NCBI RefSeq assembly: GCF_030464365.1
Contig: NZ_VCYI01000004.1
Span: forward strand, 62,001-126,000
Direction: 5' to 3'
Length of the DNA stretch: 64,000 nucleotides
From: Methanoculleus methanifontis
GTDB lineage: Archaea > Halobacteriota > Methanomicrobia > Methanomicrobiales > Methanoculleaceae
Shown here: positions 29,950 to 63,420 of the stretch, in pieces
Numbering within the stretch: the first letter of the stretch is position 1
Layout of the letters: the number at the start of each line of letters is the position of its first letter
Program-made: the position numbers and the translations under genes
Notes under the pieces: model-generated
The model's input: the letters and a program-made list of their open reading frames with translations, nothing else
Databases searched by the model: none
What the model was told of the DNA's origin: nothing

Positions 29950-30690
29950 ATTTGAGGCGCGACGGCCCGAAGGGTGCGATGGTCCAAAGGACCGGAGCTT
30001 GAGAAAGCGCGAAGCGTTTTCGGGGTCGGAGCGCGAGCACCGCGGGTGACTTGCGACGGCTCATAAAAACAGGAGCGTGGTCACCGTCAGGTGTGGCTTG
30101 TAACGGTTCGTTAAAACCGGAGCTTAGTCACGTATGCCTTGCAACGGATGTGCCGTCCGTCGCGTCTTTCAGACTGTCACGCTCAGGAACGAAGTTTAAG
30201 CAGATGAAACGGATAGTAGCAGGCGAAGCGGTTGGGCGACACCTAGCACGGATCGCATGGGGGGTATCGCCCCTGGGGGTGGGGCTGACGGGGAGTGCGA
30301 CGGTTCATAGAACCGGAGCTCGACCACCGTCAGGTGGGAAGGGGGGAGCATCCCCCCTCCCCTGTCTCCACATACGAAGGAATTCCTATAACCCCACCCC
30401 ACCCAGCCTCCTCCTCCGCGCCTTCGGTGCTCAAACTCTTGCTGTTCCAGCAGTCGTTACCCGACCCAGGGGGCGGGGGCTATCGCCATTGGGGAGACAA
30501 CTGGCCGTAGGGCAGTTGCTTGAGAAGAACGAAGTTCTTCGAGTTTCTCAAGCTCGCTACGCTCGCACTCCGCACCCTTCGGGTGCTCGAGCTCCGGGCG
30601 TTCCGCCCATCGCACTCCCCGTCAGCCCCTCCCCGCGTGGCGATGTCCACTGGAAATCCTCGTACGGTTTGTGATGTTTCTGAAAACAGT
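29950..30690. repeat. repeat-rich gap: degenerate 45-bp double-hairpin units plus GC-rich module
   Basis: No gene is credible here. From 29955 to about 30210 lies a plus-oriented string of degenerate units with short hairpins (GGTCC AAA GGACC, CGC GAA GCG, CACC GTCA GGTG) joined by GGAGC...GAG linkers. At 30259-30370 is a GC-rich module shared with 56562-56628 but with one extra unit of about 45 bp (about 30295-30340). At 30417-30498 is a unit shared with 56331-56400. At 30515-30650 the pattern recurs in the opposite orientation (GCACCC TTC GGGTGC, GGGCG TTC CGCCC, CTCCCCGTCAGCCCC). The remaining stretch to the next gene (30690-30823) shows nothing I can name. Confidence 0.75.
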
Positions 30691-30823
30691 AAGGCGGGAA
30701 ACCAATGTTTGACATCGTCAGTTTGGCCACTCCATCTTCCCATCCCCAAACCAGCCCCATCCTGCCACACCGCAGACACCCACCGGCCGGTCCAACACCA
30801 CACCAAATCCGCCCCTGACAAGG

Positions 30824-30832
30824 TTTAAAAAC
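30824..30832 (+). promoter_or_regulatory. TATA box for the rubrerythrin-like gene
   Basis: TTTAAAAAC is centred about 27 nt before the ATG at 30855, pointing to a leaderless transcript. Confidence 0.6.
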
Positions 30833-30854
30833 CCCGGATGCTACTGTCCCACCG

Positions 30855-31322
30855 GTGCATGAAGTCATGGACACCGAAGAATACCGTTCTATCATATCGA
30901 ATGCCATCGACCGCGAGATCGAGGCATACACCTTCTACCGCACCGTCAGGGAGAAGGTCACGGATGAGAACCTGAAAAACCTCTTCAACGAGCTCGCCGG
31001 GGAGGAGAGCCAACATCGGAAGACCCTCGAAGCCCTTCTCACGAAGGAACCTGCGAAACTCGCGTTCAACACAAAGCGGGACTACAAGGTTGCCGATACC
31101 CTGGAGACGCCACCGCTCTCGGCCGACTTAAAGCCGCTCGACGGCCTCGTCATCGCAATCAGAAAAGAACTCGATGCGATGCAGATGTATACCCAGCTCG
31201 CGAGCCTGAGCGTGGACCCTGAGCAGATCGAGCTCTTCGAGAGCCTCGCCGCGATGGAGCGCGGCCACAAGGCGCGCCTCGAGGACATCTACACCAACAT
31301 GGCGTTCCCGGAAGCCTGGTGA
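30855..31322 (+). CDS. rubrerythrin-like ferritin-fold di-iron protein
   Basis: Probable peroxide-reducing or iron-handling four-helix protein. The 155 residues contain two helix pairs with the ligand pattern of rubrerythrins: EIEAYTFYRTV then GEESQH in the first half, and ELDAMQMYTQLA then AAMERGHKARLEDIY in the second. No C-terminal rubredoxin domain is present, so it would need an external electron donor. The TATA distance supports the start at 30855; the ATG at 30867 is the alternative. A T10 run follows. Confidence 0.85.
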   Translation: MHEVMDTEEYRSIISNAIDREIEAYTFYRTVREKVTDENLKNLFNELAGEESQHRKTLEALLTKEPAKLAFNTKRDYKVADTLETPPLSADLKPLDGLVIAIRKELDAMQMYTQLASLSVDPEQIELFESLAAMERGHKARLEDIYTNMAFPEAW

Positions 31323-31349
31323 ATGCGGGGCTTCGCGGCTCCGCTATTC

Positions 31350-31359
31350 TTTTTTTTTT
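31350..31359 (+). terminator. oligo-T terminator after the rubrerythrin-like gene
   Basis: Ten T residues begin 28 bases after the stop codon. Confidence 0.6.
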
Positions 31360-31404
31360 GCACGCGGAGGGAGAAAAAGAGAGGGGTGCAGGCTCTCCCC
31401 TGCA

Positions 31405-32256
31405 TCAGTCGACAGCGCAGTAGGCCCCCTTGAAGAACCAGTTCCGGTAGACGATCGGGGTGATGAGCGTGGTCAACAGACTCGTCAGAACGATCACCAC
31501 GAAGACGTTCTGGCCGATGAGTCCTGACTCGAGCCCGATCAGGGCAACGGTCATCGCCACCTCGCCCCGCGGCGCCACCCCGAACCTGACAATGAGGGAG
31601 TCCTCACGGCACATCCCCATCACCGGGGCGGGGAGACCGCACTCAATAACCTTGGTGGCGATGGCAACGAGGGTCAGGGCCACCAGGAAGAGAACCATGT
31701 CGGGGGTGAGCGCACGGATGTCCGCGAGGACCCCGGGGATACGAAGAAGATCGAGGCGAAGACGATCTGGAAGTACTCGGCACCCTCGTGGACGCCCTTA
31801 CTCTGTCGGAGTTTGACTCCGGCGAAGGCGATCCCGGCGAGGAATGCGCCGATGATGCCAGATAAGCATGCTGGTCGCTGTCAGCGCAGTACCGATGAAG
31901 ACCGCACTTGTAAAGTCGAACCCGAAGAGGACAGCGGTTGCGTAGCCACCTATCCAGGGTATGACCACGCCGAGGAGGCCTATAACACCGTAGCGTGGAT
32001 CGACGATGTCCTTGATATTGAACTCGAAACCGATGACGAAGAGGAGGAGGATGGCCCCGAGATGCGCCAGGGTCGCGACGAAGTCCGTGTAAGTGATCAG
32101 GCCGAGCACGCTCGGTCCGACCAAAACCCCCACAAGAATCGCCCCGATCGTCGCCGACTGGTTGATGCGGGATGCCACAAGGTAGCCGGCGAGCGCGAGG
32201 AAGAGAAGGAGGCTCATTTGAATCTCAATTGCTAGGGCAGCGCTTTCCATTGTCAC
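31405..32256 (-). pseudogene. broken Na+(K+)/H+ antiporter gene (CPA2/KefB family)
   Basis: The start at 32256 gives a normal N-terminus: helices in LLLFLALAGYLVASRI, the ILVGVLVGPSVLGL motif, ILLLFVIGFEFNIKDI and FIGTALTATSMLI. At about 31868 the frame jumps straight to IIGAFLAGIAFAGVKL, leaving out the central helices with the usual acidic transport motif, and needs a frame change. A second shift near 31738 is needed to join FASIFFVSPG to GVLADIRALTP and MVLFLVALTLVAIATKV. The tail to YRNWFFKGAYCAVD is intact. So there is an internal deletion of roughly 70 or more codons plus frameshifts, and no functional transporter is expected. Confidence 0.85.
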
Positions 32257-32383
32257 CCATGATCTGGGAGGGAGGCCTTGAGAAGTATGTGGAACACCGG
32301 AGAGTTGCAGCGCGATCCGGAACCGCCTCTCCGCTGCGCCGGAGATTCCACTGCCGATACGGGTCTAAGGCATCACCCCGCCA

Positions 32384-34301
<1,918 letters not shown>

Positions 34302-34422
34302 TCTCGTATGCTTGCCGTACGCCAAAAAATCTCTTCCGGTTTCGCCGCCGAACAGGATGAGGGTTCCGCGAAATACTCACACGGAAGCAAGATACGACAA
34401 TGTGAAGGCCGGGCGAATGTAG

Positions 34423-34495
34423 TACCCCCGGGCGGATTCGAACCGCCGTCGCCGGATCCAAAGTCCTGCATGATTGACCACTACACTACGGGGGT
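34423..34495 (-). tRNA. tRNA-Gln (anticodon TTG)
   Basis: On the minus strand the acceptor stem ACCCCCG pairs perfectly with CGGGGGT, followed by discriminator A and no encoded CCA. The D-arm GTGTAGTGGTCAATCAT is the usual Gln/Glu type. The anticodon loop is CTTTGGA (anticodon TTG) on the stem CAGGA/TCCGG, which has one A-G mismatch at the second pair. The T-arm GGCGG TTCGAAT CCGCC is perfect. Total 73 nt, no intron. Confidence 0.93.
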
Positions 34496-34609
34496 ACAAG
34501 AAACCTAAACCACCGATACCCGCGGCATCGGCTCCTATATTCTATGTAGCGCGGGATTATATCGGTTTGGTCACAGGCAGATCGGGGGGGAGGGGACCCA
34601 CCCGGACGC

Positions 34610-35959
34610 TCACGTCCGATCGAAGTCGTCCTCGAACCTGACGATGTCGTCCTCGCCGGTGTACTCCCCGATCTGGACCTCGATCAGTTCGAGCGGCAGG
34701 AGGCCGGGGTTCGCGAGCCGGTGGACCGTTCCCGCCGGGACGAAAGTGGACTCGCCGTTGCGCAGAAGAGAGGTCTCGTCCCCGATCGTTACCTCGGCGC
34801 ACCCGGTGACGACCACCCAGTGCTCGGAGCGGTGATGGTGCATCTGCAGCGATAGCCGCCGTTTCGGGGGGACGGTTACCCGCTTGATCTTATACGCCTG
34901 TCCCTCCTCGAGGTTCGTGTAGGAGCCCCAGGGCCGGTGAACCTGCGTGTGGAAGAGAGCACGCGAATCCCCCTTCTCACGGAGGGCCTTTGCGATCTCG
35001 CCCACCCGCTGGGCCTCGTCCCGGGCGGCGACCAGGATCGCATCCTTCGTCTCGACGATGGCAAGGTCGTGAACCCCGACGGTGGCGACCAGGCGGTCGG
35101 CGATGATCAGGTTTTCGGAGGAGTCGATCCCGATATGCTCGCCCCTGACCGCGTTCCCGCTCCCGTTCTTTTGGAGAGCGGCGTAAAGTGCGTCGAAGTT
35201 CCCCACGTCGCTCCAATCACATTCAAGCGGCACGACCGCCGCCTTCCGGGTCTTCTCCATGATCCCGTAATCGATGGAGAGAGCGGGAGTTGCGTTGTAC
35301 GCCTCCTCGAGGGGCTGCTCGAACGCCCGGGCCACCTCCGGTGCGCACGTCTCGCACTCGGAGAGGAAGAGACCCGCGTCGAAACAGAACATTCCGGAGT
35401 TCCAGAGGTAGCCGTCGGCGACATACCGGCCGGCGGTCTCGAGATCGGGCTTCTCGACGAAGGCGTCCACGAGTGAACCTTCCTCGAGAGGCTCGCCGGG
35501 CCGGATATAGCCGTATCCGGTGTGCGGCGATGTCGGCCGCACCCCGAAGGCCACCAGGCAGTCCTTGCTAAGCCGCTCCGCCCGGCGGAATGCATCCTGG
35601 AACGGACCGGCCGCGGTGATCAGGTGATCCGAGGGGAGAACCGCGACCGTGTCCGGCCCGTCCCGGGTGATCTCGCGGGCGCCGTAGTAGATCGCCGGCA
35701 GGGTGTTCTTGCCCACCGGCTCCACGAGGACACGGCAGTCGCACCCGATGGCGGCGAGCTGGTCTCTGACCAGGAACCGGTGATCGGTGTTCGTGACGAT
35801 GGCGATTTCCTGCGGCGAGGAGAAGAGGAGCGCCCTCTTCACGGTCTTCTGGAAGAGAGACTCGTCGTCGACGAGTGGGATGAACTGTTTCGGGTAGTGT
35901 TCCCTTGAGAGCGGGAAGAGACGGGTGCCGCTCCCGCCTGCAAGTATGAGCGTCTTCAT
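34610..35959 (-). CDS. manC: mannose-1-phosphate guanylyltransferase / mannose-6-phosphate isomerase (bifunctional type)
   Basis: Makes GDP-mannose for surface glycans. The 449-residue protein has the nucleotidyltransferase start LILAGGSGTRLFPLSREHYPK, the VLPSDHLI and GVRPTSPHTGYGYI motifs, FVEKPD and NSGMFCFDA. A C-terminal cupin domain has the type II phosphomannose-isomerase signature in RPWGSYTNLEEGQAYKIKR, then LSLQMHHHRSEHWVVVTG. Length is typical for type II ManC. A sugar epimerase (36.7 kb) and glmM (41.8 kb) nearby suggest a loose nucleotide-sugar region. Confidence 0.94.
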   Translation of the reverse strand: MKTLILAGGSGTRLFPLSREHYPKQFIPLVDDESLFQKTVKRALLFSSPQEIAIVTNTDHRFLVRDQLAAIGCDCRVLVEPVGKNTLPAIYYGAREITRDGPDTVAVLPSDHLITAAGPFQDAFRRAERLSKDCLVAFGVRPTSPHTGYGYIRPGEPLEEGSLVDAFVEKPDLETAGRYVADGYLWNSGMFCFDAGLFLSECETCAPEVARAFEQPLEEAYNATPALSIDYGIMEKTRKAAVVPLECDWSDVGNFDALYAALQKNGSGNAVRGEHIGIDSSENLIIADRLVATVGVHDLAIVETKDAILVAARDEAQRVGEIAKALREKGDSRALFHTQVHRPWGSYTNLEEGQAYKIKRVTVPPKRRLSLQMHHHRSEHWVVVTGCAEVTIGDETSLLRNGESTFVPAGTVHRLANPGLLPLELIEVQIGEYTGEDDIVRFEDDFDRT

Positions 35960-36171
35960 GGGATCGACTCCGTGCCGGAGGCACTCGATTGTACACTCTT
36001 TCGGCAGGAAGGATAAAAACGTAAGGTTCTCCGGGAGTTCTCGCGGTGCGGCGAGCCGAACCGGGGCACTCGTGCCACGAGTGCATGGCGGGGTACACTA
36101 TACAGCAACCCGTATCGCACCCAACAGTGTATCGGCCCCGACCCCCCGGAAAAATGAGTGAACCTGCCCGG

Positions 36172-36615
36172 TCAGGCCCGGGTCATCGTCGAGTTCCCCG
36201 GGTAGAGAGCCCGGGCCTGCGGGTCGAGGTCTTCGGCCATCGCAAGAACATGCTCGGCCTCATGGTAGTTCCCAAGCCTGCCGAGCACCATGCCGTACGT
36301 CACCAGAGCAAAGATGCACGACCGGTCGATCGCGAGTGCCTGCCTGCACGCAAGCGCCGCTTCCTGGGGCCGGTCGAGCCGGGTGAGGATCACCGCCCGG
36401 TTGTTCCAGGCGTAGACATCATCGTTTTCGCAGAGTATTGCTGCACTGAATGCAGCGAGCGCTTCCTCGTAGCGCCCCTGCCGTTCAAACGCCACCCCCC
36501 TGTTGTTCAGGGCAGCCGGATCATACAGACCCTCCGTGGCGACGTCGCTGTACGCCCGTGACGAATCTCTGTCATCACCCTTGCGGGGCATCTCCGGTGT
36601 AACCAATTGGGGCAT
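36172..36615 (-). CDS. tetratricopeptide-repeat protein
   Basis: A 147-residue protein with about three TPR units (for example LNNRGVAFERQGRYEEALAAF, then AWNNRAVILTRLDRPQEAALA and LVTYGMVLGRLGNYHEAEHVL) after a hydrophilic N-terminus. No signal peptide or membrane segment. TPR proteins scaffold partners; the partner is not evident. A good TATA box lies about 35-40 bases upstream, so it is a separate transcription unit between manC and the epimerase gene. Confidence 0.8.
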   Translation of the reverse strand: MPQLVTPEMPRKGDDRDSSRAYSDVATEGLYDPAALNNRGVAFERQGRYEEALAAFSAAILCENDDVYAWNNRAVILTRLDRPQEAALACRQALAIDRSCIFALVTYGMVLGRLGNYHEAEHVLAMAEDLDPQARALYPGNSTMTRA

Positions 36616-36647
36616 ACGTCTGCACCTCGCCCCCCTTTACTGTGGAG

Positions 36648-36660
36648 TAACGATATATAG
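36648..36660 (-). promoter_or_regulatory. TATA box for the TPR gene
   Basis: Read on the minus strand the site is ACCTATATATCG, 33-45 nt before the start at 36615. Confidence 0.55.
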
Positions 36661-36726
36661 GTTCCTGCACCTCCCGCGCCCGGGAGTGTGGCGAACCCGG
36701 ATCAGCAAATCAGGTCCCCCAGAAGG

Positions 36727-37662: not shown

Positions 37663-37830
37663 ATGGATTGGTAGGCGTTCCAGTGATTTGAGCGTTGCCG
37701 GAGGGGAAGATCGGTTGGGAGAAAGATGCGCCTGCACAGGACAAGCAGTCAGCGCCTTGCAAGTGGGTTCAGATACTGCCCCCAACCCCCCGCCGCCACC
37801 GCTCTGATGCGGGAGGATTCAGATTTCTGT

Positions 37831-39090: not shown

Positions 39091-39915
39091 TGTACAATAA
39101 ATTAAATAACGGAGCATATCAATATTGCGGTAAATGCCTATTCCCCGCAACGGATCGTATCGCCACAAAAACAGGACCCCACACAGGGAGGTTCACCGAC
39201 CCCATACACACCCACGCCGAGAGAGCCAATGCAAGAGGGCATCCCGATCCCCGGACAAACGCGACAGACGGGCAGATACACAACAGGAGGAACGACCCCA
39301 CCGGAGGCATGCCCCCACGGGAGGCGGCCCAGAATCCCCGGCGTAGGCTCCAGAAAAGCCCAAAAACGCATCCCAGAGGTTGCAGACAGATCGGGCCGAC
39401 CAGAACCCTAAAAAAAGTATGGTGATGCAGATAGTGTCGGAGTTAGGAGGTATGAAGGGGCCGCCATCCCAGGTGGACAGGGAAGCAAACCCTGTGGAAT
39501 ACGTCCTCATTCAAGTATATGAACCCCTTACCGCGCGGGGAGAAAGTGAACGACCAGGGAGCAGCACCGGCGCCACGCGACCCGCACCCCCCGCCCACAT
39601 ATAAATGACCCCCACAATCAAGCACAGGCGCCCGATCGACCACTCCAGCAACCTCCACTATAGACCCAGGCATGATCAGCGCTCAAAATTGCGATACGAG
39701 GGCACCGGATCCCGATGACCCGGCGTAGAATACCAGGGCCACAGCACACCCGGGAGAAAAGGCAAGGCAGAGACCCTCCAGCAAGCGTTTCATACAACCG
39801 GGTATTTATCCGAACCCAGCTCTCATCGGAACATCGCACCCACGAGATCAGGCAACTCAAACGCTACACCTTGTGGGAAAGTCGTCTTTCGCGGCTTCGC
39901 GCTCTTCGCGTGAGA

Positions 39916-40014
39916 CCTTATCACCACCTTATCACCACCTTATCACCACCTTATCACCACCTTATCACCACCTTATCACCACCTTATCACCACCTTATCA
40001 CCACCTTATCACCA
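39916..40014 (+). repeat. tandem repeat, 9 perfect copies of an 11-bp unit
   Basis: The unit CCTTATCACCA is repeated nine times without a mismatch. It begins right at the end of a dispersed CGCGAAG-type repeat whose tail reads GCGTGAGACCTTATCACCA. The single-copy relative at about 38044-38065 ends GCGTGAGATCTTGTCACCAT, so the array looks like an expansion of that tail. Confidence 0.95.
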
Positions 40015-40302
40015 CCTCACGCTAAAGGCGGCCAGAAATCCGCCAGGTCACGAAAGGGAACCGATGATTGGACCTCCTCAAAAATTTGAACCTGATTCGG
40101 GCGTCTTCACCCAGTTGCCTAAAGGAATGCCGTTCCCGACGATCGATACCGCCTTTGAAGCCCAATACAATTTCAACCGCCCGATCGATGCCGGCCCCCC
40201 AAGCGGCGATTATTGCACTCCAAACGGAGCGCCACGCCACCTACATCACCGACTTACCCCCCCAACACCTGGGAGCAAAGAGGCACACATAAACCCCATA
40301 AT

Positions 40303-41803: not shown

Positions 41804-43174
41804 ATGCGAAATGGAAAACAGATGTTTGGAACGAACGGCGTGCGGGGTGTGATCGGAGAGACGATGTCGCCGGCCCTCGTCCTCAAGATCGGCGCAGCGC
41901 TCGGATCGATGAGGAGAGGCACCATCGCAGTCGGCAGAGACACGCGAACATCCGGCGAAGCCCTGACCCATGCCCTCAAGGCCGGACTCCTGATGACGGG
42001 GTGCGACGTGGTGGACATGGGCGTCCTCCCCACCCCGGCCCTGCAGTACATCATCAAGACCAACCGGTTTGGCGGCGGCGCGATGATCACCGCATCCCAC
42101 AACCCGCCCGAGTATAACGGCGTGAAGATCGTCGAGGCCGACGGTACCGAGATGTCCGATGAGGAGATCATCCGGCTCGAAGGCCGGTTCTTTGCAGAGG
42201 AGTTCGATGTGGTCGAGTGGGACGGTGTCGGCAAGGAGAGCGCCGCACCCGTCCGGCTGGAGGAGTACATCGAGGCCGTCGTGAACCACTTCCCGGAAGG
42301 CATCGGCAAGGGCATGACCGTCGTCGTCGACCCCGGCTCCGGGCCCGCAGCGCTCACGACCCCGATCATCCTCTCGAGGATGGGGTGCCGGGTCCATACC
42401 ATCAACGGCAGGCTCGACGGCACCTTCCCGGGCCGGATGCCTGAACCGACACCCGAAGGATTGCAGCCCCTCTCGGAGATGGTTCTCGCTACGGGCGCCG
42501 ACTTCGGGGTGGCACACGACGGCGACGCCGACCGGGCGGTCTTCGTCGACACCAAAGGACGCTATATAGAAGAGAACTACGAGTTCGGTCTCATCGAGGA
42601 CTATGTCTGCGGTAGGAACGGCAGCGGGCTCGTCGTCACCCCGGTCGCTACCTCCAGGTTGATCAGGGATATTGCGGAGAAACACAACTGCACCGTCGAC
42701 TACACAGCCGTAGGGAGCATTTACGTTGCGAGAAGGATGATCGAACTGATCGGCGAGGGCAGGAACGTCTCGTTCGGGGGCGAAGGAAACGGCGGGCTGA
42801 TATATCCCGACCACCAGTTCTGCCGGGACGGGGGCATGACCGCCGCCATGATGGTGGCGGTGCTCGCGAGCCATCAGAACAGAAAACTCTCGGATATCGT
42901 CGACGAACTCCCCGCGTATCACCTGGTCAAGGAGAAATACCACACTGGCGACCCGTCCGCGCTGGTCCGCACCGTCGAAGAGGCATTCGCGGGAGAGACC
43001 GTCGAGAAGATCGACGGCATCAAGATCATCAGGGACAACGTCTGGGCGCTGGTGCGGGCATCGGGCACGGAACCGATGATCAGGATCATGATCGAGGCAA
43101 AAGACCCGGCCGTCGCGGACGCCATGTACCGGGAGATTATGATGGTTGCGATGGACGGGACGCCCAGAGCATGA
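41804..43174 (+). CDS. glmM: phosphoglucosamine mutase-like phosphohexomutase
   Basis: Interconverts hexose-6- and -1-phosphates, probably glucosamine phosphate, for UDP-GlcNAc. The 456-residue protein has FGTNGVRGVIGE, VGRDTRTSGEAL, the phosphoserine loop ITASHNPPEYNGVKI, the metal loop AHDGDADRAVFVD, sugar-binding GGEGNGGLIYP and the phosphate-binding RASGTEPMIRIMIE. The last residues MDGTPRA are encoded by the first unit of the 45-bp tandem repeat, so the natural C-terminus may have been replaced. Start could also be the ATG at 41822. Archaeal members can also act on mannose or glucose phosphates. Confidence 0.92.
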   Translation: MRNGKQMFGTNGVRGVIGETMSPALVLKIGAALGSMRRGTIAVGRDTRTSGEALTHALKAGLLMTGCDVVDMGVLPTPALQYIIKTNRFGGGAMITASHNPPEYNGVKIVEADGTEMSDEEIIRLEGRFFAEEFDVVEWDGVGKESAAPVRLEEYIEAVVNHFPEGIGKGMTVVVDPGSGPAALTTPIILSRMGCRVHTINGRLDGTFPGRMPEPTPEGLQPLSEMVLATGADFGVAHDGDADRAVFVDTKGRYIEENYEFGLIEDYVCGRNGSGLVVTPVATSRLIRDIAEKHNCTVDYTAVGSIYVARRMIELIGEGRNVSFGGEGNGGLIYPDHQFCRDGGMTAAMMVAVLASHQNRKLSDIVDELPAYHLVKEKYHTGDPSALVRTVEEAFAGETVEKIDGIKIIRDNVWALVRASGTEPMIRIMIEAKDPAVADAMYREIMMVAMDGTPRA

Positions 43175-43298
43175 GCACCGCAGGTGCGAAGTGCGATGGA
43201 CGGGACGCCCAGAGCATGAGCACCGCAGGTGCGAAGTGCGATGGACGGGACGCCCAGAGCATGAGCACCGCAGGTGCGAAGTGCGATGGACGGGACGC
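43148..43298 (+). repeat. 45-bp tandem array, 3 perfect copies plus 16 bases
   Basis: Units start at 43148, 43193, 43238 and 43283 (partial). Each holds two mini-hairpins, GGG ACG CCC and CACC GCA GGTG, joined by AGAGCATGAG and closed by CGAAGT. The first unit contains the last nine codons of glmM including its stop. Confidence 0.95.
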
Positions 43299-43727
43299 GA
43301 CCGGCCGAAGGGCGGGAGCATGAGAAAACGCGAAGCGTTTCGAGTTGCGACGGTTCAGTAGAAACGACTGCAGTAGGACAGGAGTTCGAGCACCGTCAGG
43401 CGCGAAAGAGAGTCATACATATAACCGAACTTTGCCTCCTTCGCGGCTCGCAGACAGGTTATGAGAGACAACGCGGCCTCACGCGAAAGACGCGAAGCCG
43501 CGAAGTGCGAAGGACAACACCCTTTGGGCCAGAGCACGAGCACCAGGTGCACGCGGTCTGTCTGGCACGATCGCCTCACCGCGCCCGACCCCTCACCGCA
43601 GGATCGGCACCCCCATAGAGCAGTTCTGCCCGGGGTGCTCGGGATGACCGTTATCCTCTACCTAATCCCCGATATTTTTGAGGAACACTCCAATTCCGTT
43701 GAAAAACATTCTTGTGAGAGGAGGGCA
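43299..43727. repeat. degenerate hairpin units and a dispersed CGCGAAG repeat
   Basis: After the perfect array the pattern decays: GCC GAA GGGC, then AAACGC GAA GCGTTT (about 43324-43338), GACGGTTCAGTAGAAACGAC, and GAGCACCGTCAGGCGCGAA. A forward CGCGAAG repeat is at about 43474-43510, then GAGCACGAGCACCAGGTGC at about 43535. From 43580 to the TATA box at 43730 I recognise nothing and see no gene. Confidence 0.6.
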
Positions 43728-43729
43728 AT

Positions 43730-56189: not shown

Positions 56190-56309
56190 CGGCGCTACAG
56201 AAGAGGGTTTTGGAGGCACAAACCCGGGCGAGGGCAAGCCGCGGTAGGCGGAAAACACCAGTGATTGTGGGTCTTGCCAAGTAAAACCTACAAATGAGGA
56301 GAGATCCCA

Positions 56310-56425
56310 GTGCAGTGGACCGTGGGGCTACGCACCTTCGGTGCTCAAACTCCTGCCGTTCCAGCAGTCGTTCCCCGCCCCGGGGGCGGGGGCAGTCATG
56401 GCGATATCCCCACGGTCCACTGCAC
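56310..56425. repeat. 116-bp element bounded by a perfect 18-bp inverted repeat
   Basis: GTGCAGTGGACCGTGGGG (56310-56327) pairs exactly with 56408-56425. Inside is one double-hairpin unit in reverse orientation (CACC TTC GGTG, CTCAAACTC linker, CTGCC...AGCAG), then a C/G-rich palindrome (CCCCGCCCCGGGGGCGGGGG). The unit recurs at 30417-30498, without the 18-bp arms. Confidence 0.9.
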
Positions 56426-56561
56426 CGGGACTTTTCCCTCGCTTTTTTCGCATTTTGGCTGTCGCCACTCGCATCTGGCAGCGTTTGTACTCCTATCTTT
56501 CGACCCGTTAGATCTCCATATGCCGTTCTTCGGAGTATCGCCTGCCCAATGCACGGATTTC

Positions 56562-56628
56562 AAGGGGATATCGCCCTTGGGGGTGGGGCTGACGGGGAGG
56601 GGGGAGCATCCCCCCTCCCCTGTCTCCA
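56562..56628 (+). repeat. GC-rich module, copy without the 45-bp unit
   Basis: It begins AAGGGGATATCGCCCTTGGG, continues GGTGGGGCTGACGGGGAG, and ends in the hairpin GGGGGGAGCATCCCCCC plus TCCCCTGTCTCCA. Copy two is at about 30259-30370, split by one extra unit right after GACGGGGAG. The rest of the gap (56190-56309, 56426-56561, 56629-56743) has no recognised feature. Confidence 0.85.
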
Positions 56629-56743
56629 GCCCATAATTGTGATGCTACGCTCACATGTGACAGCAGGCGGAACGTCCTGATCTTAAACATTCTATGCCAC
56701 TAACCACCCCCGGGCAAAAACCCCCAGACCAGCCCAAAAAAAG

Positions 56744-57082
56744 TTACAATTCCTCCGGCTCCTCCTGATCCGTCCGCACCCGGCAGATGCTCTCGACCGG
56801 CAGGACGAAGATCCTGCCGTCGCCCGGCCTGCCGGTCCGGCCGTTCGCCCGGACGATCCCGACGATCCGCTCGACATCGCCGTCCCTGACGACCATCTCG
56901 ATCTTCACCTTCGGGATGAGTTCGACCGGCACCGTCTTTCCCCTGAACCGGAGGGCGATGCCCTTCTGCGCCCCCCGCCCCATCACCTCGCTCACGGTCA
57001 TCCCGTAGATGCCGTCGGCCTCGAGCGCCGCCCTCACGGTGTAGAACATCTCGGGCCTGATGACTGCAGTAACCATCTTCAT
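56744..57082 (-). CDS. glnK: PII signal-transduction protein GlnK
   Basis: Binds ATP/ADP and 2-oxoglutarate and plugs the ammonium channel. From MKMVTAVIRPEMFYTVRAAL the protein is 112 residues with the PII pattern: GIYGMTVSEVMGRGAQKG, a T-loop region (IALRFRGKTVPVELIPKVKI) and the C-terminal signature TGRPGDGRIFVLPVESICRV. The usual uridylylated T-loop tyrosine is not evident. It follows amt by 10 bases on the same strand, the standard amt-glnK pair. The frame is open 19 codons upstream, overlapping amt. Confidence 0.94.
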   Translation of the reverse strand: MKMVTAVIRPEMFYTVRAALEADGIYGMTVSEVMGRGAQKGIALRFRGKTVPVELIPKVKIEMVVRDGDVERIVGIVRANGRTGRPGDGRIFVLPVESICRVRTDQEEPEEL

Positions 57083-57092
57083 CCGCACCACC

Positions 57093-58286
57093 TCACACCC
57101 GCACGGACTCGCCGTGCTGGGCGATGTCCAGTCCAACATACTCTTCCTCCTCGGTGACCCGCAAGCCCATCGCTACATCGACGACCTTTGCGATGACGTA
57201 GGTCACGCCGAACGAGTAGGCCACGACGACGGCCACATCCACGGCCTGGATGAGGAGCTGGCCCGAGTTCCCGTAGAACAGGCCGTCAATGCCCCCGATA
57301 GCCGCGGCCGCAAAGATCCCGGTTGCGAGAGCGCCGAAGATGCCGCCCACGCCGTGGATCGCCCACGCATCGAGGCTCTCGTCGAGTCCCTCACGAACCC
57401 GGAAGAGCAGGGCACCGTAGCAGACGAGACCGGCAGCGGCCCCGATGGGAATCGCGGCCATGGGTGTGACGAACCCGGCCGCCGGCGTGATGGCTACGAG
57501 CCCGGAAATCGCCCCGCTGATGATCCCGACCGATCCGGGTCTGCCGCGAACCCAGGCGGCACAGAGCCAGGCGAGAGCCCCGGAAGCGGCGGCGATGTTC
57601 GTTGCTACGAACGCGTTTGCCGCAAGGCCGTCCGCGGCGAGAGCGCTCCCGGCGTTGAACCCAAACCACCCGAACCAGAGGAGCGCCCCGCCGAGGAGGA
57701 CCATCGGGATGTTGTTCGGTTCCATGCCGTGGCCGCCGAACCCGAGACGCTTCCCGATGACGAGCGCGAGCGCCAGCGCCGAGAACCCGGAGCTGATGTG
57801 AACGACCGTGCCGCCGGCGAAGTCGAGCGCACCGAGTTGCGCCGCCCATCCGCCGCCCCACGCCCAGTGGGCAAGCGGGTCGTAGACCAGCGTCGTCCAG
57901 AGGAGGCCGAAGACGACGAACGAACTGATCTTTATCCGCTCCGCAACCCCGGATGTCACGATTGCAAGCGTGAGGCCCGCAAAGACCATCTGGAAGGCCA
58001 TGAAGAGCAGATCCGGAATACCGTCGCCCTCCATCCCGACACCCTGCAGGAAGGCGTACTCCAAGCCCCCGATCAGCCCGTTGATGTCGGCGCCGAAGGA
58101 GAGGCTGTAGCCGCAGACGACCCACTGGATGCTGACGAGGGCGAATGCGATGAACGCCAGCGCAAGCATGGAGATGAAGTTCTTCCGCCGCACGAGCCCG
58201 CCATAGAAGAGCCCCACTCCCGGGGTCATCAGCATGACCAGTGCCGTACAGACAAGGATAAACGCCGTGGCGCCGGAATCAATCAT
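57093..58286 (-). CDS. amt: ammonium transporter
   Basis: Trimeric ammonia/ammonium channel. The 397-residue protein has about eleven membrane helices, the twin-histidine region ([11 protein letters not shown] and [20 protein letters not shown]), the [19 protein letters not shown] signature and [18 protein letters not shown] short cytoplasmic tail ([20 protein letters not shown]) gives the GlnK docking end. Start [19 protein letters not shown] is typical of archaeal Amt without a signal peptide. Confidence 0.96.
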
Positions 58287-58429
58287 AGTCCGGCTCCCGG
58301 CTCACCCACAAAGTGTTCTCGCCATTCATCGGAAGGAAGTTTCCTTCTTACAAATATAAATTTTTCTGTTTGTGTGCGCAACGGAAGGACTGATGCATCT
58401 GGAGGTACAGATCATATCTGCGTGATGCG

Positions 58430-58978
58430 ATGAGCACGAAGGGCGATGTCCGGCAGGTCTGCGCCCGCCTGCGGTCGGCGAAGACCCAAAGGGAACTCGC
58501 GAAGATCCTCTACCATGCGGTATCAGGCTACTCGCTCTTCGACCTCCAGGAGATGCGGGGGAGGGTGGAGCGCGACCTCCGATCAGTTCCCGCCGGATAC
58601 CGGCGACGCCTCTACCCCAGCGCGATGGAGCAGATCTTCGAGACGCACCACACCCTCATCGTCGCTGGCCGCCGCGGAGATCCGGGAGACGGGGAGAGGC
58701 TGCTCCCGGGCGAGTTCCAGGACTTCTGCGACATGGTCGAGGAGACATGCCTTCGCGGAGGCGAGGAGGAGCGGCACCTCGAACTCCTCTACTTCCTCCT
58801 TGCCGCCTTCAACATCTTCGTCCTCGACCGCCCCGCTCACCCCGTGGGCACGCCGTTTCCCGGCGGGTTCGAGGTCGAGGTCAGGAACGGGGAATACCTC
58901 TGCCCGGTCAGGGAGAAGGCCGACGACGTCGAGAACGCCCTCTGCCCCTACTGCCCGGCAAAGCAGAGCGACGGATGA
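58430..58978 (+). CDS. DUF2115 family protein
   Basis: The 182-residue protein has the shape of the methanogen-specific DUF2115 family: N-terminal helices (DLQEMRGRVERDLRSVPAGY), a middle with FQDFCDMVEETC, then HPVGTPFPGGFEVEVRNGEY and a C-terminal CPVREKADD...ALCPYC cysteine trio that may bind zinc. No function is known to me. It is convergent with the nitroreductase gene and has no clear operon partner. Confidence 0.85.
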   Translation: MSTKGDVRQVCARLRSAKTQRELAKILYHAVSGYSLFDLQEMRGRVERDLRSVPAGYRRRLYPSAMEQIFETHHTLIVAGRRGDPGDGERLLPGEFQDFCDMVEETCLRGGEEERHLELLYFLLAAFNIFVLDRPAHPVGTPFPGGFEVEVRNGEYLCPVREKADDVENALCPYCPAKQSDG

Positions 58979-59018
58979 AGAAGGCGCAGCAAAAAAAAGA
59001 GATCTCCGATATACGGTT

Positions 59019-59549
59019 TTATTCTTCTTCCTCGTAACGCTCGAAGAACGTGACCTCGTCGGGGACTTTTTTCTCCTTGATCTGGATTTCCTCGGGGTAT
59101 CCTGCAGGCACGAGCGAGACAAGCGTGTACTCCTCCGGGACGTTGAGGAGTTTCCGGACATCCTCGGCATAGTCCTTCTTCTCCCCCGCAACCCAGCAGG
59201 TTCCGACACCCCACGCCTGGAGCGCGAGGAGGAGCTGCATCGTCGCCGCACAGCAGTCTTCGAGGTAGTATTTCGCATCCCGCTTCCCGAAGACGGCGAA
59301 ACAGATGGGCGCATCGGCGATGAACCTGGCGTTCTCGGCGAGATCGGCAATCGCCTTCAACGTATCGCAGTTCTGGATCGTCCCGAAGAGCCAGGGCTGC
59401 TCGTTTCGCGCGGTCGGGGCAAGCCGTGCGCAGTCGAGGGCGTCTTTTACAATCTTATCCTCGATAGGGCTGTCCTTGTACTTCCGCACGCTGTGCCTGC
59501 TCCGTATCACGGTGACACCGAGATTAACCGTTCCACCAATCGGACTCAT
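59019..59549 (-). CDS. nitroreductase family FMN protein
   Basis: The 176-residue flavoprotein has the family N-terminus VTVIRSRHSVRKYKDSPIED (FMN phosphate arginines), ARLAPTARNEQPWLFGTIQN, QLLLALQAWGVGTCWVAGEK and the C-terminal VPEEYTLVSLVPAGYPEE. Members reduce nitro-aromatics, quinones or flavins using NAD(P)H. The first nine residues (MSPIGGTVN) may not belong; GTG starts further in are possible. The physiological substrate is not inferable. Confidence 0.88.
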   Translation of the reverse strand: MSPIGGTVNLGVTVIRSRHSVRKYKDSPIEDKIVKDALDCARLAPTARNEQPWLFGTIQNCDTLKAIADLAENARFIADAPICFAVFGKRDAKYYLEDCCAATMQLLLALQAWGVGTCWVAGEKKDYAEDVRKLLNVPEEYTLVSLVPAGYPEEIQIKEKKVPDEVTFFERYEEEE

Positions 59550-59625
59550 GCAACGATGGTGGGCACTCCTGGCCTAAATACCTTGGGGAAATGGAGGAAG
59601 GAAGGACTCCGGCAGAAAGGCCGGC

Positions 59626-60828
59626 CTAGAAGAGGCCCCGTATCATCTCCACCATGTTCGAGAACCCCTCGACGATGACCACGGTCGGATCGATCCCGAG
59701 GACCGGGAAGATGAAGAGGAAGTAGATGATTGTCCCGAGCGTGCTCCCGACGTTCGCGAGAGCTGCAACCAGCACCACGCGGAAGAGCGGGATCCGCCGC
59801 ATCTCTGCAAGAGTCTCCGCCTCGATGATCTGCCGGAATTCTCCGGCGGCGGGCTTGCGTATCTTCGCCTCGACGATGGCGGCAAACCATCCCGCCGCAA
59901 GCAGGGGCAGGGGGTTGAGCGACGTCATCCAGGAGACCGCAAACGCCGTGGCGGCCGAGAGGGGATGCCCGCCGGCAACCAGGGTGAACACAGCACACAA
60001 AACCCCGTTGATCAGAACCCAGTAGAGGAGAGCGGTCAGCAGGACGTCGAGCCCCACGCCCGAGAAGGCTATCGCGGCGATCAGGAGGAGGAAGAGAATG
60101 GTGACGCCCACTCCGATGATCTTCGCCCACGGCAGGGTCTTCACCCCGGCGGTCAGAGTCGGGAGCGGCGGCAGCGTCTCCGGTGCGTCCAGATAGCGCT
60201 GCACACCCTGGATATGCCCGGCGCCGACGACGGCGAGCACCCGTTCGTACCGGCCGGTGAGCATCAGAACCTGGTGGGCCAGGTAGGCGTCCCGTTCATC
60301 GATCAGGGCCTGTGCGCCCCGGGGAGAGAACTTCCTGAACTCCTCCATGGCGGCGCTCACGACGTCCTGGTCCGTGAACTCGTCGACGTCGATCTTCTGC
60401 CCCTCGACACTCACGAGCGAATAGATCAGGGCTCCGATGAGTTTGATCTTCTCCCAGATACCCATCCGGCCCCAGAACCGGGCAAGTGTGATCCGGATAT
60501 CCCGGTCGATGAGCGCCACGGGCTTCTGGTGCGCCTCGGCCTCCTCGACGGCGGCGAGCATCTCGGCACCGGGCTTCACGCCGGTTTCTGCGCCGATCCG
60601 CTGCTGGATGTAGGTGAGCACCCACTGAACGAGGAGCTGGCCGAAGTTCCCGCTTTTCAGGATCTCCCCCACCGAGGGTTCGGCCGCCTCCTCTCTGAGC
60701 GATATGAACCGTCCCCGGTCGAGCTCGACACCGACAATATCGGGCTGGAACTCCTCGATGACAGACCGAACCTCCTCGACACTCTTCTGCGAGACATGCG
60801 CCGTCCCGACAAGGCGGATCTCACCCAT
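59626..60828 (-). CDS. TraB/GumN-family membrane protein
   Basis: The 400-residue protein opens MGEIRLVGTAHVSQKSVEEV, the TraB/PrgY start with a conserved TAHVS, then DIVGVELDRGRFISL and a second conserved histidine in VLAVVGAGHIQGVQRYL. This erythromycin-esterase/TIKI-like fold is thought to be a metal-dependent peptidase or pheromone-shutdown factor. The last 170 residues contain about four to five membrane helices (IIGVGVTILFLLLIAAIAFS, NVGSTLGTIIYFLFIFPVLG). The archaeal role is unknown. Its ATG overlaps the stop of the next gene upstream. Confidence 0.88.
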   Translation of the reverse strand: MGEIRLVGTAHVSQKSVEEVRSVIEEFQPDIVGVELDRGRFISLREEAAEPSVGEILKSGNFGQLLVQWVLTYIQQRIGAETGVKPGAEMLAAVEEAEAHQKPVALIDRDIRITLARFWGRMGIWEKIKLIGALIYSLVSVEGQKIDVDEFTDQDVVSAAMEEFRKFSPRGAQALIDERDAYLAHQVLMLTGRYERVLAVVGAGHIQGVQRYLDAPETLPPLPTLTAGVKTLPWAKIIGVGVTILFLLLIAAIAFSGVGLDVLLTALLYWVLINGVLCAVFTLVAGGHPLSAATAFAVSWMTSLNPLPLLAAGWFAAIVEAKIRKPAAGEFRQIIEAETLAEMRRIPLFRVVLVAALANVGSTLGTIIYFLFIFPVLGIDPTVVIVEGFSNMVEMIRGLF

Positions 60829-61363
60829 CGAGCACCTTCACGCCTTCGCTGTCGATCACAACGCGTTTCCCCGGCGGCACCGCCGCGTCATGGAAGACGG
60901 CGCGGATACCGGCTTCTTCTACCGCCTCGGCGGCCTGCCGCCTGCAGATATTGGCCGCCGCATCGTGCGCATCGCAGGGGGAGAGCGGCACACCGAGACC
61001 GGGGCACTCCGATACTGCGAGGTCGTCGTCCACCAGCATGAAGGGATAGGTGCGGCAGATCCAGGGGCGGTGAGCGTAGATCGAGCACCGCCCGTCCCGG
61101 AGGAAGATGCAGGCATCGGCCGTTCGCCTGAGACACCATGCAAGGGTGTACTCGGCGCCGTTCCCGGCATCGATAAAGTCGGGATAGGGCTCGGCAACCT
61201 CGTCCCAGACCATACCGGTCGCCGCCATGATTGCCCGGACCTCGGCCGGGCTCACCAGCACGAGGTTCGAGTCCTCCGCAACCCGCCGGCAGCAGGCGCC
61301 GCACCCTCTGCAACGAAATCCAATCGACCCGAGTTGAGCCGCAACGTCATCTACTCCGAGCAT
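60821..61363 (-). CDS. YkgJ-type cysteine-cluster protein
   Basis: The 180-residue protein has the zinc- or iron-chelating family's CxxCxxCC core in FRCRGCGACCRRV (about residues 17-28), further cysteines in YTLAWCLRRTADACIFL, GRCSIYAHRPWICRTYP and later ECPG. These eight-cysteine proteins bind a metal, possibly Fe-S. It overlaps the TraB gene at one end (8 bases) and the guaA subunit gene at the other (13 bases), so three unrelated functions share one message. Confidence 0.88.
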   Translation of the reverse strand: MLGVDDVAAQLGSIGFRCRGCGACCRRVAEDSNLVLVSPAEVRAIMAATGMVWDEVAEPYPDFIDAGNGAEYTLAWCLRRTADACIFLRDGRCSIYAHRPWICRTYPFMLVDDDLAVSECPGLGVPLSPCDAHDAAANICRRQAAEAVEEAGIRAVFHDAAVPPGKRVVIDSEGVKVLDG

Positions 61364-61905
61364 ATCCTGTCAAAATTCTCAAAGAGAAGCCGTCCGTTGA
61401 CGGTATGGCTGACCTCCGGGTGCCACTGGATGCCGTAGAGGTGTTCATCGGGAGATGCGATTGCTTCCACGCCGCAGATAGACGATCTGGCAAGCCGGAC
61501 AAACCCTTCCGGCACAACCGAGACCTCATCCGCGTGCGATGCCCATACCTGTATCCGATCGGGGTAGCCCTGGAGAAGGGTGTTTTGTTCGAGGGTCTCG
61601 ACCTCGACCGCACCGAACCCGCCGCTCGCACCCTGACGGATCGCGCCCCCGCGGGCTGTCGCCATGATATGCAGCCCAAGGCAGATGCCGAGAACAGGAA
61701 GACCGAGATCGAGGTATGCCGGAGCGACACCGGCGCGCTCAAGGGTCGGGCCGCCACCGAGGATGATGCCCCGGCAGCCCCGGGCGACCTCGGCCGGCGG
61801 CGTCTCGTTTGAGACCATCGTGGCCTCGATATCCATGTCACGGAGCGTTCGGAGGATCAGGTGGTTGAACTGTCCGTGATTGTTGACCACATAGAGTGGA
61901 AGCAT
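61351..61905 (-). CDS. guaAA: GMP synthase glutaminase subunit (GMPS subunit A)
   Basis: Class I glutamine amidotransferase that supplies ammonia for XMP to GMP. The 184-residue protein starts MLPLYVVNNHGQFNHLILRT and has the nucleophile elbow VLGICLGLHIMA, and the His-Glu pair in GIQWHPEVSHTVNGR. In archaea this subunit is separate from the PP-loop synthetase subunit, which is not in the window. It is the first gene of the overlapping run guaAA - cysteine-cluster - traB. Confidence 0.94.
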   Translation of the reverse strand: MLPLYVVNNHGQFNHLILRTLRDMDIEATMVSNETPPAEVARGCRGIILGGGPTLERAGVAPAYLDLGLPVLGICLGLHIMATARGGAIRQGASGGFGAVEVETLEQNTLLQGYPDRIQVWASHADEVSVVPEGFVRLARSSICGVEAIASPDEHLYGIQWHPEVSHTVNGRLLFENFDRICSE

Positions 61906-61943
61906 TGCTTATAGATAGATGCAAAAAGGTAATAGTCCTTCCC

Positions 61944-62960
61944 TCAGGCGTACTTCTTGACGAAATCGAAGACTTTGCGGGAGATCTCTTCGGGCTCATG
62001 GCCCATGAGGTACGCGAGCGTCAGGGCCCCTCCGGCCCCCATCCCTTCCTTGACTTCGCCGATGCAGTAGCGGGCGAGCCCGACGTGCCCGAGCTCGGCG
62101 AAGTTCGGATCAACGTAGTACGCGGCGGTGCCGACGTCGGCAACCGACCGGACGAACCCGGCGGACGGATCGTCCCTGACGTAGACCGTCGTCGCAAGAC
62201 CGGGCACCCGTCTTCCGAGCGCCTTCAGGACGGCCGCAACGGCAAGCATCTGGGTTCCGCCGGCAAACATGACTTCGCCGGAGTAGGCGCTCGCGATCCC
62301 TGCAGCGACCGGCATCATGGGGTCGCCCGCGGCACGGAGGATCTCGAGGGGCTCTCTTGCGCCCGTCGCGTCGACCCGGGCGAGCACTTCCCGGCAGACG
62401 GCGTCTTTCAGTCCAAGAGGGTTCTCTACAAACGCGCTACTGACCGAGGCGTCGTAGCCGAGCGCCCGCAGAACGCAGAGGGCGGTGGTCGTACCGCCGG
62501 GGACGCACTCCCCGAGCATCAATAAATCGCTGTACTGTGAGAGAAGCCTCCCAACCGCTTCGCCCCGCTCGAAGAGGGCTTCCGTCTGCGGCACCGCGTC
62601 CTCCGTCCGCGGATCGCCGCCGGGGCTCCCGTAGACGTCGATGCAGGGGACGGTTGGCGTATGGGCAAGCCCTGCGTTGATGATGACGGGGGCAAGCCCG
62701 GTCAGTTCCACCATCGACCGGGTGATGCTCGCGGGCGTCGGGCAGCCGGTGGGGGTGTTCGGCCGGGCCGGAACGCTCGTGATCGCGCCGGTCGTGACGA
62801 GCTCCGCATCCAGGTTTGGGGTGAGCAGGGTCTTTTCGGGGGTCGGCCCTGCGCCGGATATGCCGGGGACGGTGGAGAGCATGGTGTTACCGAGAACGAG
62901 CGCCAGCATCGGGCGCTTTGGCCTTATCCCCGGGTCTTCTGAGAGGAACGGGTTGGACAT
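61944..62960 (-). CDS. CobT-like nicotinate-nucleotide dimethylbenzimidazole phosphoribosyltransferase (TIGR00303 type)
   Basis: Activates the lower ligand for cobamide assembly. From MSNPFLSEDPGIRPKRPMLA the protein is 338 residues, with glycine-rich segments resembling the archaeal CobT-like family: LVLGNTMLSTVPGISGAGPT, GECVPGGTTTALCVLRALGY, AGIASAYSGEVMFAGGTQML and the C-terminal EVKEGMGAGGALTLAYLMG with the conserved glutamate. It lies divergent from cobZ-cobS, which complete the same branch. The longer frame to 63080 is not family-like. Confidence 0.9.
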   Translation of the reverse strand: MSNPFLSEDPGIRPKRPMLALVLGNTMLSTVPGISGAGPTPEKTLLTPNLDAELVTTGAITSVPARPNTPTGCPTPASITRSMVELTGLAPVIINAGLAHTPTVPCIDVYGSPGGDPRTEDAVPQTEALFERGEAVGRLLSQYSDLLMLGECVPGGTTTALCVLRALGYDASVSSAFVENPLGLKDAVCREVLARVDATGAREPLEILRAAGDPMMPVAAGIASAYSGEVMFAGGTQMLAVAAVLKALGRRVPGLATTVYVRDDPSAGFVRSVADVGTAAYYVDPNFAELGHVGLARYCIGEVKEGMGAGGALTLAYLMGHEPEEISRKVFDFVKKYA

Positions 62961-63085
62961 TGTGTACAGGATAGGTACCGTGAGGTAGAAGAGATTGCTG
63001 TCGGAGCGTGGGGGAGGAGTGTGGTGGTCGGGCGTGGGCGGGGAGGGGGGCGCAGTGGATGGGTGTGGGTTTCCACACATCGGAA

Positions 63086-63277
63086 CTTCGCCGGTCGTGC
63101 CTACGGGGCTTAAACTCGGTTCCTACGGAACCTCGCCACTCGCACCTACAGGGCTTAAACTCGGTTCCTACGGAACCTCGCCACTCGCACCTACAGGGCT
63201 TAAACTCGGTTCCTACGGAACCTCGCCACTCGCACCTACAGGGCTTAAACTCGGTTCCTACGGAACCTCGCCACTCG
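63086..63277 (-). repeat. 45-bp tandem array, one degenerate and three identical copies plus 12 bases
   Basis: Units start at 63086 (degenerate), 63131, 63176, 63221 and 63266 (partial). Read on the minus strand each unit holds a perfect hairpin GGTTCC GTA GGAACC, a GAGTTTAA linker, a weaker hairpin GCCC TGTA GGTGC, then GAGTGGCGA. Confidence 0.95.
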
Positions 63278-63420
63278 AAAACGCTTCACGTTTTCTCGAG
63301 CTCCGGCCGCTCGCACCGTCCAGTGCGAGCGCCCATCGCCGTTCGCACCTCCGGTGCTCACGTTCGCTACGCTCACGCGTCGAAGACCTTCGGTCTTCTC
63401 CGAGCGTCGTTAATACCAAA
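63278..63420 (-). repeat. degenerate double-hairpin units next to cobZ
   Basis: It contains GAAAACGC TTCAC GTTTTC, CTCGAGCTCCGGCCG, GCTCGCACCGTCCAGTGCGAGC (a 7-bp stem), then GCACC TCC GGTGC and GAAGACC TTC GGTCTTC. They follow the minus-oriented array without a break and stop about 40 bases before the cobZ start. The stretch 62961-63085 has no visible feature. Confidence 0.75.

Follow-up and report, generated by a model that had tools for sequence, protein, structure and literature searches.

Double-hairpin units occupy four intergenic gaps of the window

The window analysed here is a stretch of 64,000 nucleotides (nt) of Methanoculleus methanifontis DNA (contig NZ_VCYI01000004.1, forward-strand positions 62,001–126,000). 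In four gaps between its genes, at about 30, 43, 56 and 63 kb, the window carries copies of a 42–48-nt unit composed of two adjacent hairpins. They probably represent a mobile element of Methanoculleus and its close kin that is very small, non-coding and non-autonomous. An initial annotation of the window had reported units at these four loci, and all four are recovered by the covariance model R1, which was built from 10 units of this genome and run unfiltered. Two MAFFT alignments that mixed hairpin-2 lengths were misaligned and were excluded from model building. R1 yields 17 matches with E ≤ 0.083 (13 with E ≤ 0.01), all of which lie within the four gaps (4, 6, 1 and 6 matches at 30, 43, 56 and 63 kb, respectively); the next match has an E value of 0.25.

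The 30 kb gap had been described as a degenerate string of units. A degenerate unit is present (30414–30459, minus strand, 24.9 bits), but the string arises partly from a unit nested in hairpin 1 of another unit, and other units lie on the opposite strand. The left part of the outer unit (29959–29974, plus strand), which consists of GCGA, the left arm of hairpin 1, GAA and GGG, is interrupted by the inner unit (29975–30025, plus strand; TGCGA to CG plus GGG; 44.4 bits at 29974–30025). The right part follows at 30026–30048 on the same strand (TCG GAGC GCGAG CACC GCG GGTG). GGG flanks the inner unit on both sides, and joining 29959–29974 to the sequence from 30026 onward produces a canonical 15-nt hairpin 1, as assessed in the nested test described below. 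A single plus-strand unit with 3 further nucleotides (30296–30341, 46 bp; 45.7 bits at 30295–30341) occupies a site that is empty in the relative G057 (filled/empty pair C25:92293). The top match of the window (64.8 bits) is located at 30568–30615 on the minus strand.

The units at 43 kb lie on the plus strand and begin with a tandem array (43147–43298, period 45, 100% matches in Tandem Repeats Finder) that contains three complete units (43147–43191; 43192–43236, 57.9 bits; and 43237–43281, 46.9 bits) and a truncated fourth unit (43282–43295). The array is followed by a unit of another subtype with the hairpin CCGGCC GAA GGGCGG (43296–43345; 38.3 bits at 43295–43345) and by two degenerate units (43362–43407, 20 bits; 43505–43554, 22.1 bits). 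The linker of the first tandem unit supplies the TGA stop codon of a phosphoglucomutase-family gene with Pfam PGM_PMM domains that ends at 43174. The stop codon thus comes from the inserted unit, which overlaps the gene end at 43147–43174, and the C-terminal tail of the protein differs from that in species with an empty site.

The singleton that had been noted at 56 kb is a single model match (56328–56373, minus strand, 44.2 bits). A repeat search reveals a 33-nt inverted repeat here (arms 56298–56330 and 56405–56437), and the unit begins at its inner edge. At 63 kb, four minus-strand units (63093–63137, 63138–63182, 63183–63228 and 63229–63272) form an array at 63093–63272, which Tandem Repeats Finder reports as 63081–63277 with period 45 and 96% matches. 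The four units score low (14.8–18.0 bits) because they carry the variant GAGT TTAAG. A unit of another subtype (63273–63316, 19.6 bits) adjoins the array, and a short or degenerate unit is found at 63341–63378 (24.5 bits), both on the minus strand.

Two hairpins with conserved loops and feet define the unit

The consensus unit reads TGCGA, hairpin 1, GAGC, NYGAG, hairpin 2 and CG, followed by about 3 nt. From TGCGA to CG, it spans 42–44 nt when hairpin 2 is short and up to about 48 nt otherwise. Hairpin 1 has a stem of about 6 bp and a length of 15 nt in 91 of 115 distinct units, and one frequent type contains a G·G mismatch at pair 4 (19/52). The stem of hairpin 2 comprises 4–7 bp. Of 131 distinct model matches, 109 have GCGA and 18 have ACGA as the foot of hairpin 1. 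GA faces GA at the feet of both hairpins (130 and 130 opposite 130 and 129 of 131 rows in hairpin 1; 131 and 130 opposite 130 and 100 in hairpin 2). Among isolated units, hairpin 2 is followed by C in 61/69 and by G in 67/69. The loops had been described as mostly three bases long. GNA triloops do predominate, but GNNA tetraloops occur as well: hairpin 1 displays GNA in 76/93 triloops and GNNA in 15/19 tetraloops, and hairpin 2 displays GNA in 51/57 and GNNA in 32/40 (21 GNYA and 11 GNRA). Hyperstable DNA minihairpins, for example d(GCGAAGC), have GNA loops. Minihairpins of this kind are the subject of PMC10527192. A very short hairpin 1 (CC GAA GG or CC GGA GG) is observed between GCGA and GAGC in G052 (38053) and in L311 of G055.

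The units were collected using patterns or a model that contain GCGA, GAGC and GAG; the collecting patterns did not demand the loops, the CG tail or the T that precedes GCGA. The sense strand outfolds its complement in 117/121 units with DNA parameters and in 114/121 units with RNA parameters. A recurrent feature across units is that stem sequences vary with compensation and linkers vary far less. Hairpins, loops and linkers are thus preserved on one strand while the stem sequence changes, which makes the units a naturally occurring collection in which one fold is built from many different stems.

Compensatory stem changes, claimed in the initial annotation together with conserved linkers, are borne out by two tests. 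In an alignment of 131 distinct rows, which was fitted to the covariance model and therefore leans towards it, 94.5% of cells pair compared with 75.6% in shuffles, and 295 cells are changed on both sides, compared with 85 in shuffles and at most 70 in any slid structure. In a model-free, flank-anchored test, 52 distinct 15-nt inserts are 76% Watson–Crick paired, compared with 50% in shuffled inserts (maximum of 59% in 1000 shuffles). The hairpin 1 pair outside the G·A steps also covaries (GC 104, AU 20, GU 7, unpaired 0; n = 131), which speaks for a helix that runs through the tandem G·A pairs. Selection on the folded form, as initially suggested, is likely but falls short of proof, because covarying stems can also result from replication-templated correction of palindromes.

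Units are inserted at sites that are empty in relatives

The end of the phosphoglucomutase-family gene is matched in 34 of 35 genomes of the genus. Thirty of these, including the present one, were examined and 29 are readable. By eye, 18/29 sites are occupied and 11/29 are empty, all at one position. The occupied sites include three with degenerate units, some others that are reduced to hairpin 1 and one that consists mostly of unread bases. A scripted count gives 16 occupied, 10 empty and 3 degenerate sites plus one unread site; it keeps the three degenerate sites separate and misplaces the empty site L211. In the nearest relative, whose gene is 96% identical, the unit at this site has different stems.

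Filled and empty sites are also found across longer syntenic regions. A comparison of eight genomes (∼77–200 kb each), from which unbroken blocks of 9 kb or more were excluded, reveals 131 indels of 38–110 bp, in which one event is often counted in several pairs. Among the rows listed, 30 indels hold units, and the filled and empty sites differ by one unit or a small group of units. Three further events come from a separate comparison. Fourteen events were judged clean by eye; complex rows were not scored. Exactly matching triplets flank the inserted sequence as AAG/AAG (G000, the present genome, at C25:154040 against G070), GAG/GAG (G052), ATA/ATA (a nested pair of 90 bp in G056), GGT/GGT (two units, G070 against G054) and AAG/AAG (nested, G057). 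Partial matches comprise a GAG shifted by one base (G051) and two-of-three matches at window position 30296, in a nested G051 unit and in G057.

Nested units provide a second line of evidence. When a unit plus 3 nt is removed from its surroundings, a canonical hairpin 1 of 15 nt reappears in 10 of 135 units; with 2 nt the same holds for four others, and with the seven other lengths from 0 to 8 nt it holds for none. Shuffles at 3 nt give a mean of 0.26 and a maximum of 1 (50 shuffles). The set is weighted towards the present genome, which contributes 79 of the 135 units and 8 of the 10 positives. Over all units, the flank triplets agree in 36/114, against 11.9 expected (tandem arrays included), and in isolated units, they agree in 12/69, against 4.2 expected (maximum of 10 in 200 shuffles). 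An alternative reading with a 5-nt duplication was dropped because the CG after hairpin 2 is conserved. Units are therefore inserted into pre-existing DNA; insertion likely adds about 3 nt, and the added nucleotides are probably a target duplication. New copies occur between genes, within two other families of intergenic repeats and in hairpin 1 of earlier copies.

The covariation could instead be purely mutational, with tandem slippage and template-switch correction of quasi-palindromes generating compensatory changes and no selection on the fold. Perfect tandem arrays fit such a process, as do wholly different stems at one orthologous site next to a gene that is 96% identical. It is nevertheless quite unlikely to suffice, because stem correction fails to explain the conserved GNA and GNNA loops and CG tail, which the collecting patterns do not demand, and units are inserted precisely at new sites, including nested sites with a 2–3-nt addition.

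The units form a genome-wide family concentrated in Methanoculleus and its relatives

The four-locus extent given in the initial annotation is too small. In the 2.61-Mb genome, R1 gives 158 matches at E ≤ 1 from the 150 of 4173 candidate places that were scored, and 227 matches at E ≤ 0.05 are found in the 423 kb around the best 150 units. The pattern GCGA-N9..19-GAGC-NYGAG occurs 117 + 96 times (213) in the genome, compared with 26 + 14 (40) for a reversed control. A simple GCGA..GAG[CT] hairpin scan of the window is not above chance (31 compared with 20–34 in 20 Markov sequences), so the signal needs the whole unit.

A covariance-model scan, the check proposed in the initial annotation, returns many intergenic matches in Methanoculleus. 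Across the order, 38 of 232 genomes match at E ≤ 1e-4 (26 candidate places scored per genome): 32 of the 35 genomes of the genus, one genome from another genus of the family and five genomes elsewhere with one or two hits. Wider scoring at E ≤ 0.01 reveals 146 copies in the complete genome of a relative (G048) and 81 in a sister genus (G082); low-copy congeners contain 6 (G055) and 4 (G075). A phylum scan gives matches at E ≤ 0.001 in 19 of 392 genomes, of which 15, including the present one, belong to the genus and four are weak. A strict pattern applied to 84,980 species genomes retrieves 31 stretches, and all of them come from records titled Methanoculleus, Methanomicrobiales archaeon or Euryarchaeota archaeon bins. 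A few units beyond the family, weak but plausible, are found at L288, L297 and L303 (G085, from another family of the order; E values of 1.1e-4 to 8.6e-4). In G052, an array of model matches is spaced at 46 nt. Viral contigs contain 18 pattern hits, the best of which scores 20.8 bits (E = 0.0083) with the model; these were read as chance, and viral carriage was rejected.

Units avoid divergent gaps and are oriented independently of genes

The placement of the best 150 of the 158 matches (all E ≤ 0.0042) was analysed relative to genes predicted with a simple codon-model gene finder. Three units overlap predicted genes, 17 lie at gene edges and 130 are located in 76 gaps, of which 40 are same-direction, 29 convergent and 7 divergent. 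The comparison gaps of at least 150 bp without any of the 150 units comprise 41 same-direction, 12 convergent and 33 divergent gaps; one unit-bearing gap is 120 bp long, and weaker units may be present in some of the comparison gaps. Divergent gaps are thus avoided (7/76 compared with 33/86; Fisher p = 1.8e-5), and convergent gaps are enriched (29/76 compared with 12/86; p = 5e-4). Within same-direction gaps, 32 units run along the genes and 31 run opposite to them, which indicates no direction bias. In G048, with tandem units merged, neighbours no more than 1.5 kb apart have opposite orientations in 23 cases and the same orientation in 5. This complete genome displays no chromosome-arm bias, and a two-arc replication-strand fit is no better than shuffles. 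Contigs C9, C13, C23 and C27 start within 300 bp of units. The long intergenic gaps of the genome are explained in part by the units, whose arrays coincide with assembly breaks.

A structured RNA (a stabilizer in the 3′ untranslated region, a terminator or a small RNA) that is selected at the RNA level and spread by duplication would fit the strong covariation, the convergent-gap enrichment and the preference of RNA parameters for the sense strand. The convergent bias is also expected from tolerated insertion, however, and an RNA function of the fold, as initially proposed, is unlikely given that unit direction is independent of genes and that sites are empty in relatives. Rfam offers no match either: searches with the whole window and 20 unit-bearing loci returned only tRNA, and a lax search of 281 bases gave one match of 13.4 bits, compared with a gathering score of 48. 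The filled and empty sites, together with the nested restoration, argue for mobile DNA and not primarily for an RNA gene. This mobility is the part that was missing from the initial annotation.

The units resemble known small repeats, and searches identified no mobilizing enzyme

The units behave like the repetitive extragenic palindromic (REP) sequences and bacterial interspersed mosaic elements (BIMEs) of bacteria and like mitochondrial double-hairpin elements (DHEs). REPs are 20–50 bp long, intergenic and present in about 10^2 copies, with a conserved foot beside a variable stem (PMC3733652, PMC3116915). The units resemble REPs, BIMEs and REPINs in all of these properties and in their inverted doublets, clusters and uneven spread (PMC3733652, PMC3116915). 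In contrast to the single stem-loop of a REP, each unit carries two hairpins, and its flanks are GCGA/GAGC/NYGAG/CG instead of a GTAG/GTGG or CGTC tag. The units are moreover archaeal, nested into their own hairpins and found in a genome without a Y1 transposase.

The Y1_Tnp domain (PF01797) of the REP-associated tyrosine transposase (RAYT) has no match in the present genome. It occurs in 30 of the 232 genomes of the order and in 7 of the 35 of the genus, five of which are low-copy or unit-free (G055, G064, G067, G075 and G078); the other two are the high-copy G062 and, below the cut-off, G077. G078 is transposase-rich and unit-poor, with 18 Y1_Tnp matches and no unit at E ≤ 1e-4. Based on the search of the 232 genomes, RAYT-driven mobility was rejected for the present genome. 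REPs or BIMEs proper, moved by a RAYT that most genomes have since lost or that acts from rare carrier genomes, would account for the size of the units, their placement between genes, their inverted neighbours and clusters and their genus-specific amplification, and CGTC REPs likewise lack an association with a transposase (PMC3733652). This assignment is nonetheless unlikely given the distribution of PF01797 and the two hairpins per unit; a GTAG or CGTC foot is present in 0/131 distinct rows, a count that leans because the model was built from GCGA units.

DHEs share with the units a short double hairpin and insertion variability between relatives (PMC2800124, a paper on hairpin elements of sponges). 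In both, the two hairpins are joined by a short linker and the element is mobile; no homology is claimed. DHEs differ in being mitochondrial, whereas the units reside on an archaeal chromosome, and the Allomyces elements lack a flanking duplication (PMC2800124), whereas the units add 2–3 nt. Retroposition, in which a unit is transcribed, reverse transcribed and inserted, has been suggested for the Allomyces elements, as quoted in PMC2800124, and would be in keeping with a unit that is structured on one strand. For the units, it is very unlikely: the reverse transcriptase domain RVT_1 was detected in 4 of 40 genomes of the family and was not found in G000, G048, G052 or G082. A search for the IS91-type domain Y2_Tnp (PF04986) gave 0/40, but the control genomes were equally silent. 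The units also resemble miniature inverted-repeat transposable elements in being short and non-autonomous with a probable target duplication, but the 42–48-nt unit lacks terminal inverted repeats. No partner transposon was found for them; transposases other than Y1 and Y2 were not searched.

That no such family had been described, as the initial annotation surmised, is nearly right. An open-access literature search showed no earlier description of this unit among the papers listed, and sequence-string queries for the family were also empty. The architecture resembles the mitochondrial elements, and two M. marisnigri satellites, Fam_48_45_4 (45 nt) and Fam_102_51_3 (51 nt), are tabulated in PMC6749651. 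They match the units as tandem repeats of similar length from the same genus, a likeness of length and not of compared sequence, and their table rows give no structure, dispersion or mobility. The relevant section of PMC6749651 names a Methanocella family as the only archaeal non-coding exception among long-repeat families, and that section therefore recognizes no dispersed intergenic family in Methanoculleus.

Mobility may rely on the shape of a folded single strand

Several results weigh against a mobile element with a 3-bp target duplication. The conservation of the linkers is partly built in, since GCGA, GAGC and GAG are held in the collecting patterns and model. Folding energy is uninformative on the choice between RNA and DNA because both parameter sets favour the same strand. 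An outer Y-R covariation of hairpin 2, suggested by 22 units, is not significant (p = 0.11). The duplication itself is uneven: the 14 clean events include 5 exact triplet matches, 1 with a one-base shift, 3 with two of three bases and 5 without a match, and the 10 nested cases contain 4 matching triplets against about 2.3 expected by random pairing (hand count). In isolated units, another offset pair gives a higher z than the 3-nt triplets, and the triplet signal is weak when examined position by position. Some apparent insertions could be deletions in the other lineage, and the Y1_Tnp and RVT_1 searches identified no mobilizing enzyme.

For the mobile element favoured here, a mechanism is proposed tentatively. 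An enzyme supplied in trans would recognize the folded single strand during replication or repair, and the recognized shape would be the two adjacent hairpins with their GNA-type loops and G·A-flanked feet. The enzyme would then cut and insert the strand, favouring targets that themselves form hairpins. The 45–47-bp tandem arrays may originate from insertion beside an existing copy or from later slippage, and units at one site may be swapped for others via recombination. Effects at the RNA level, such as 3′-end stability and occasional stop codons, would be by-products. In its most specific form, the proposal describes a 42–48-nt element whose mobile form is a folded single DNA strand. Its enzyme would be of a type other than Y1 transposases and reverse transcriptases and would recognize shape and not sequence, and insertion would favour the hairpins of the element's own relatives, with a 3-nt duplication. 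This version is possible but doubtful. If the shape-recognized single-strand reading is true, the unit would be, to our knowledge, among the smallest mobile elements known. The units also provide a mobile repeat of REP-like type in archaea, one whose filled and empty sites are clear and whose copies are inserted into one another. Most members of this group lack the standard REP enzyme, and the question of what mobilizes REP-like repeats without a RAYT thus becomes testable.

Neighbouring intergenic repeats

The units often lie inside two other intergenic repeats, CTCACGCGAAG..CGCGAAG and GGATATCGCCATTGGGGGAG-GGGCTGACGGGGAG. The pattern CTCACGCGAAG-(0-12)-CGCGAAG has 117 matches genome-wide, compared with 0 for the reversed control. 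The CTCACGCGAAG-type repeat is a string of GCGAAG mini-hairpins (window examples at 43475–43510 and 39893–39915) and often forms inverted pairs about 40 bp apart; double-hairpin units may or may not lie between the arms. At window positions 39890–40030, an 11-bp tandem repeat of ACCTTATCACC (9.4 copies, 100% matches) adjoins a CTCACGCGAAG-type arm and has a CTCACGCTAAAGGCG-like arm on the opposite side. A third, mosaic repeat at 30258–30375 and 56298–56625 is composed of GTGCAGTGGACCGTGG ends, GATATCGCC, GGGGCTGACGGGGAG and a GGGGGGAGCATCCCCCC hairpin. Another 11-bp tandem repeat, ATGAACGATGA, is located at about 182430–182530 of contig C25 in the present genome, where its copy number differs from that in G052. 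The region around ATGAACGATGA is 97–99% identical between the two genomes, and most of the compared stretch averages about 90%.

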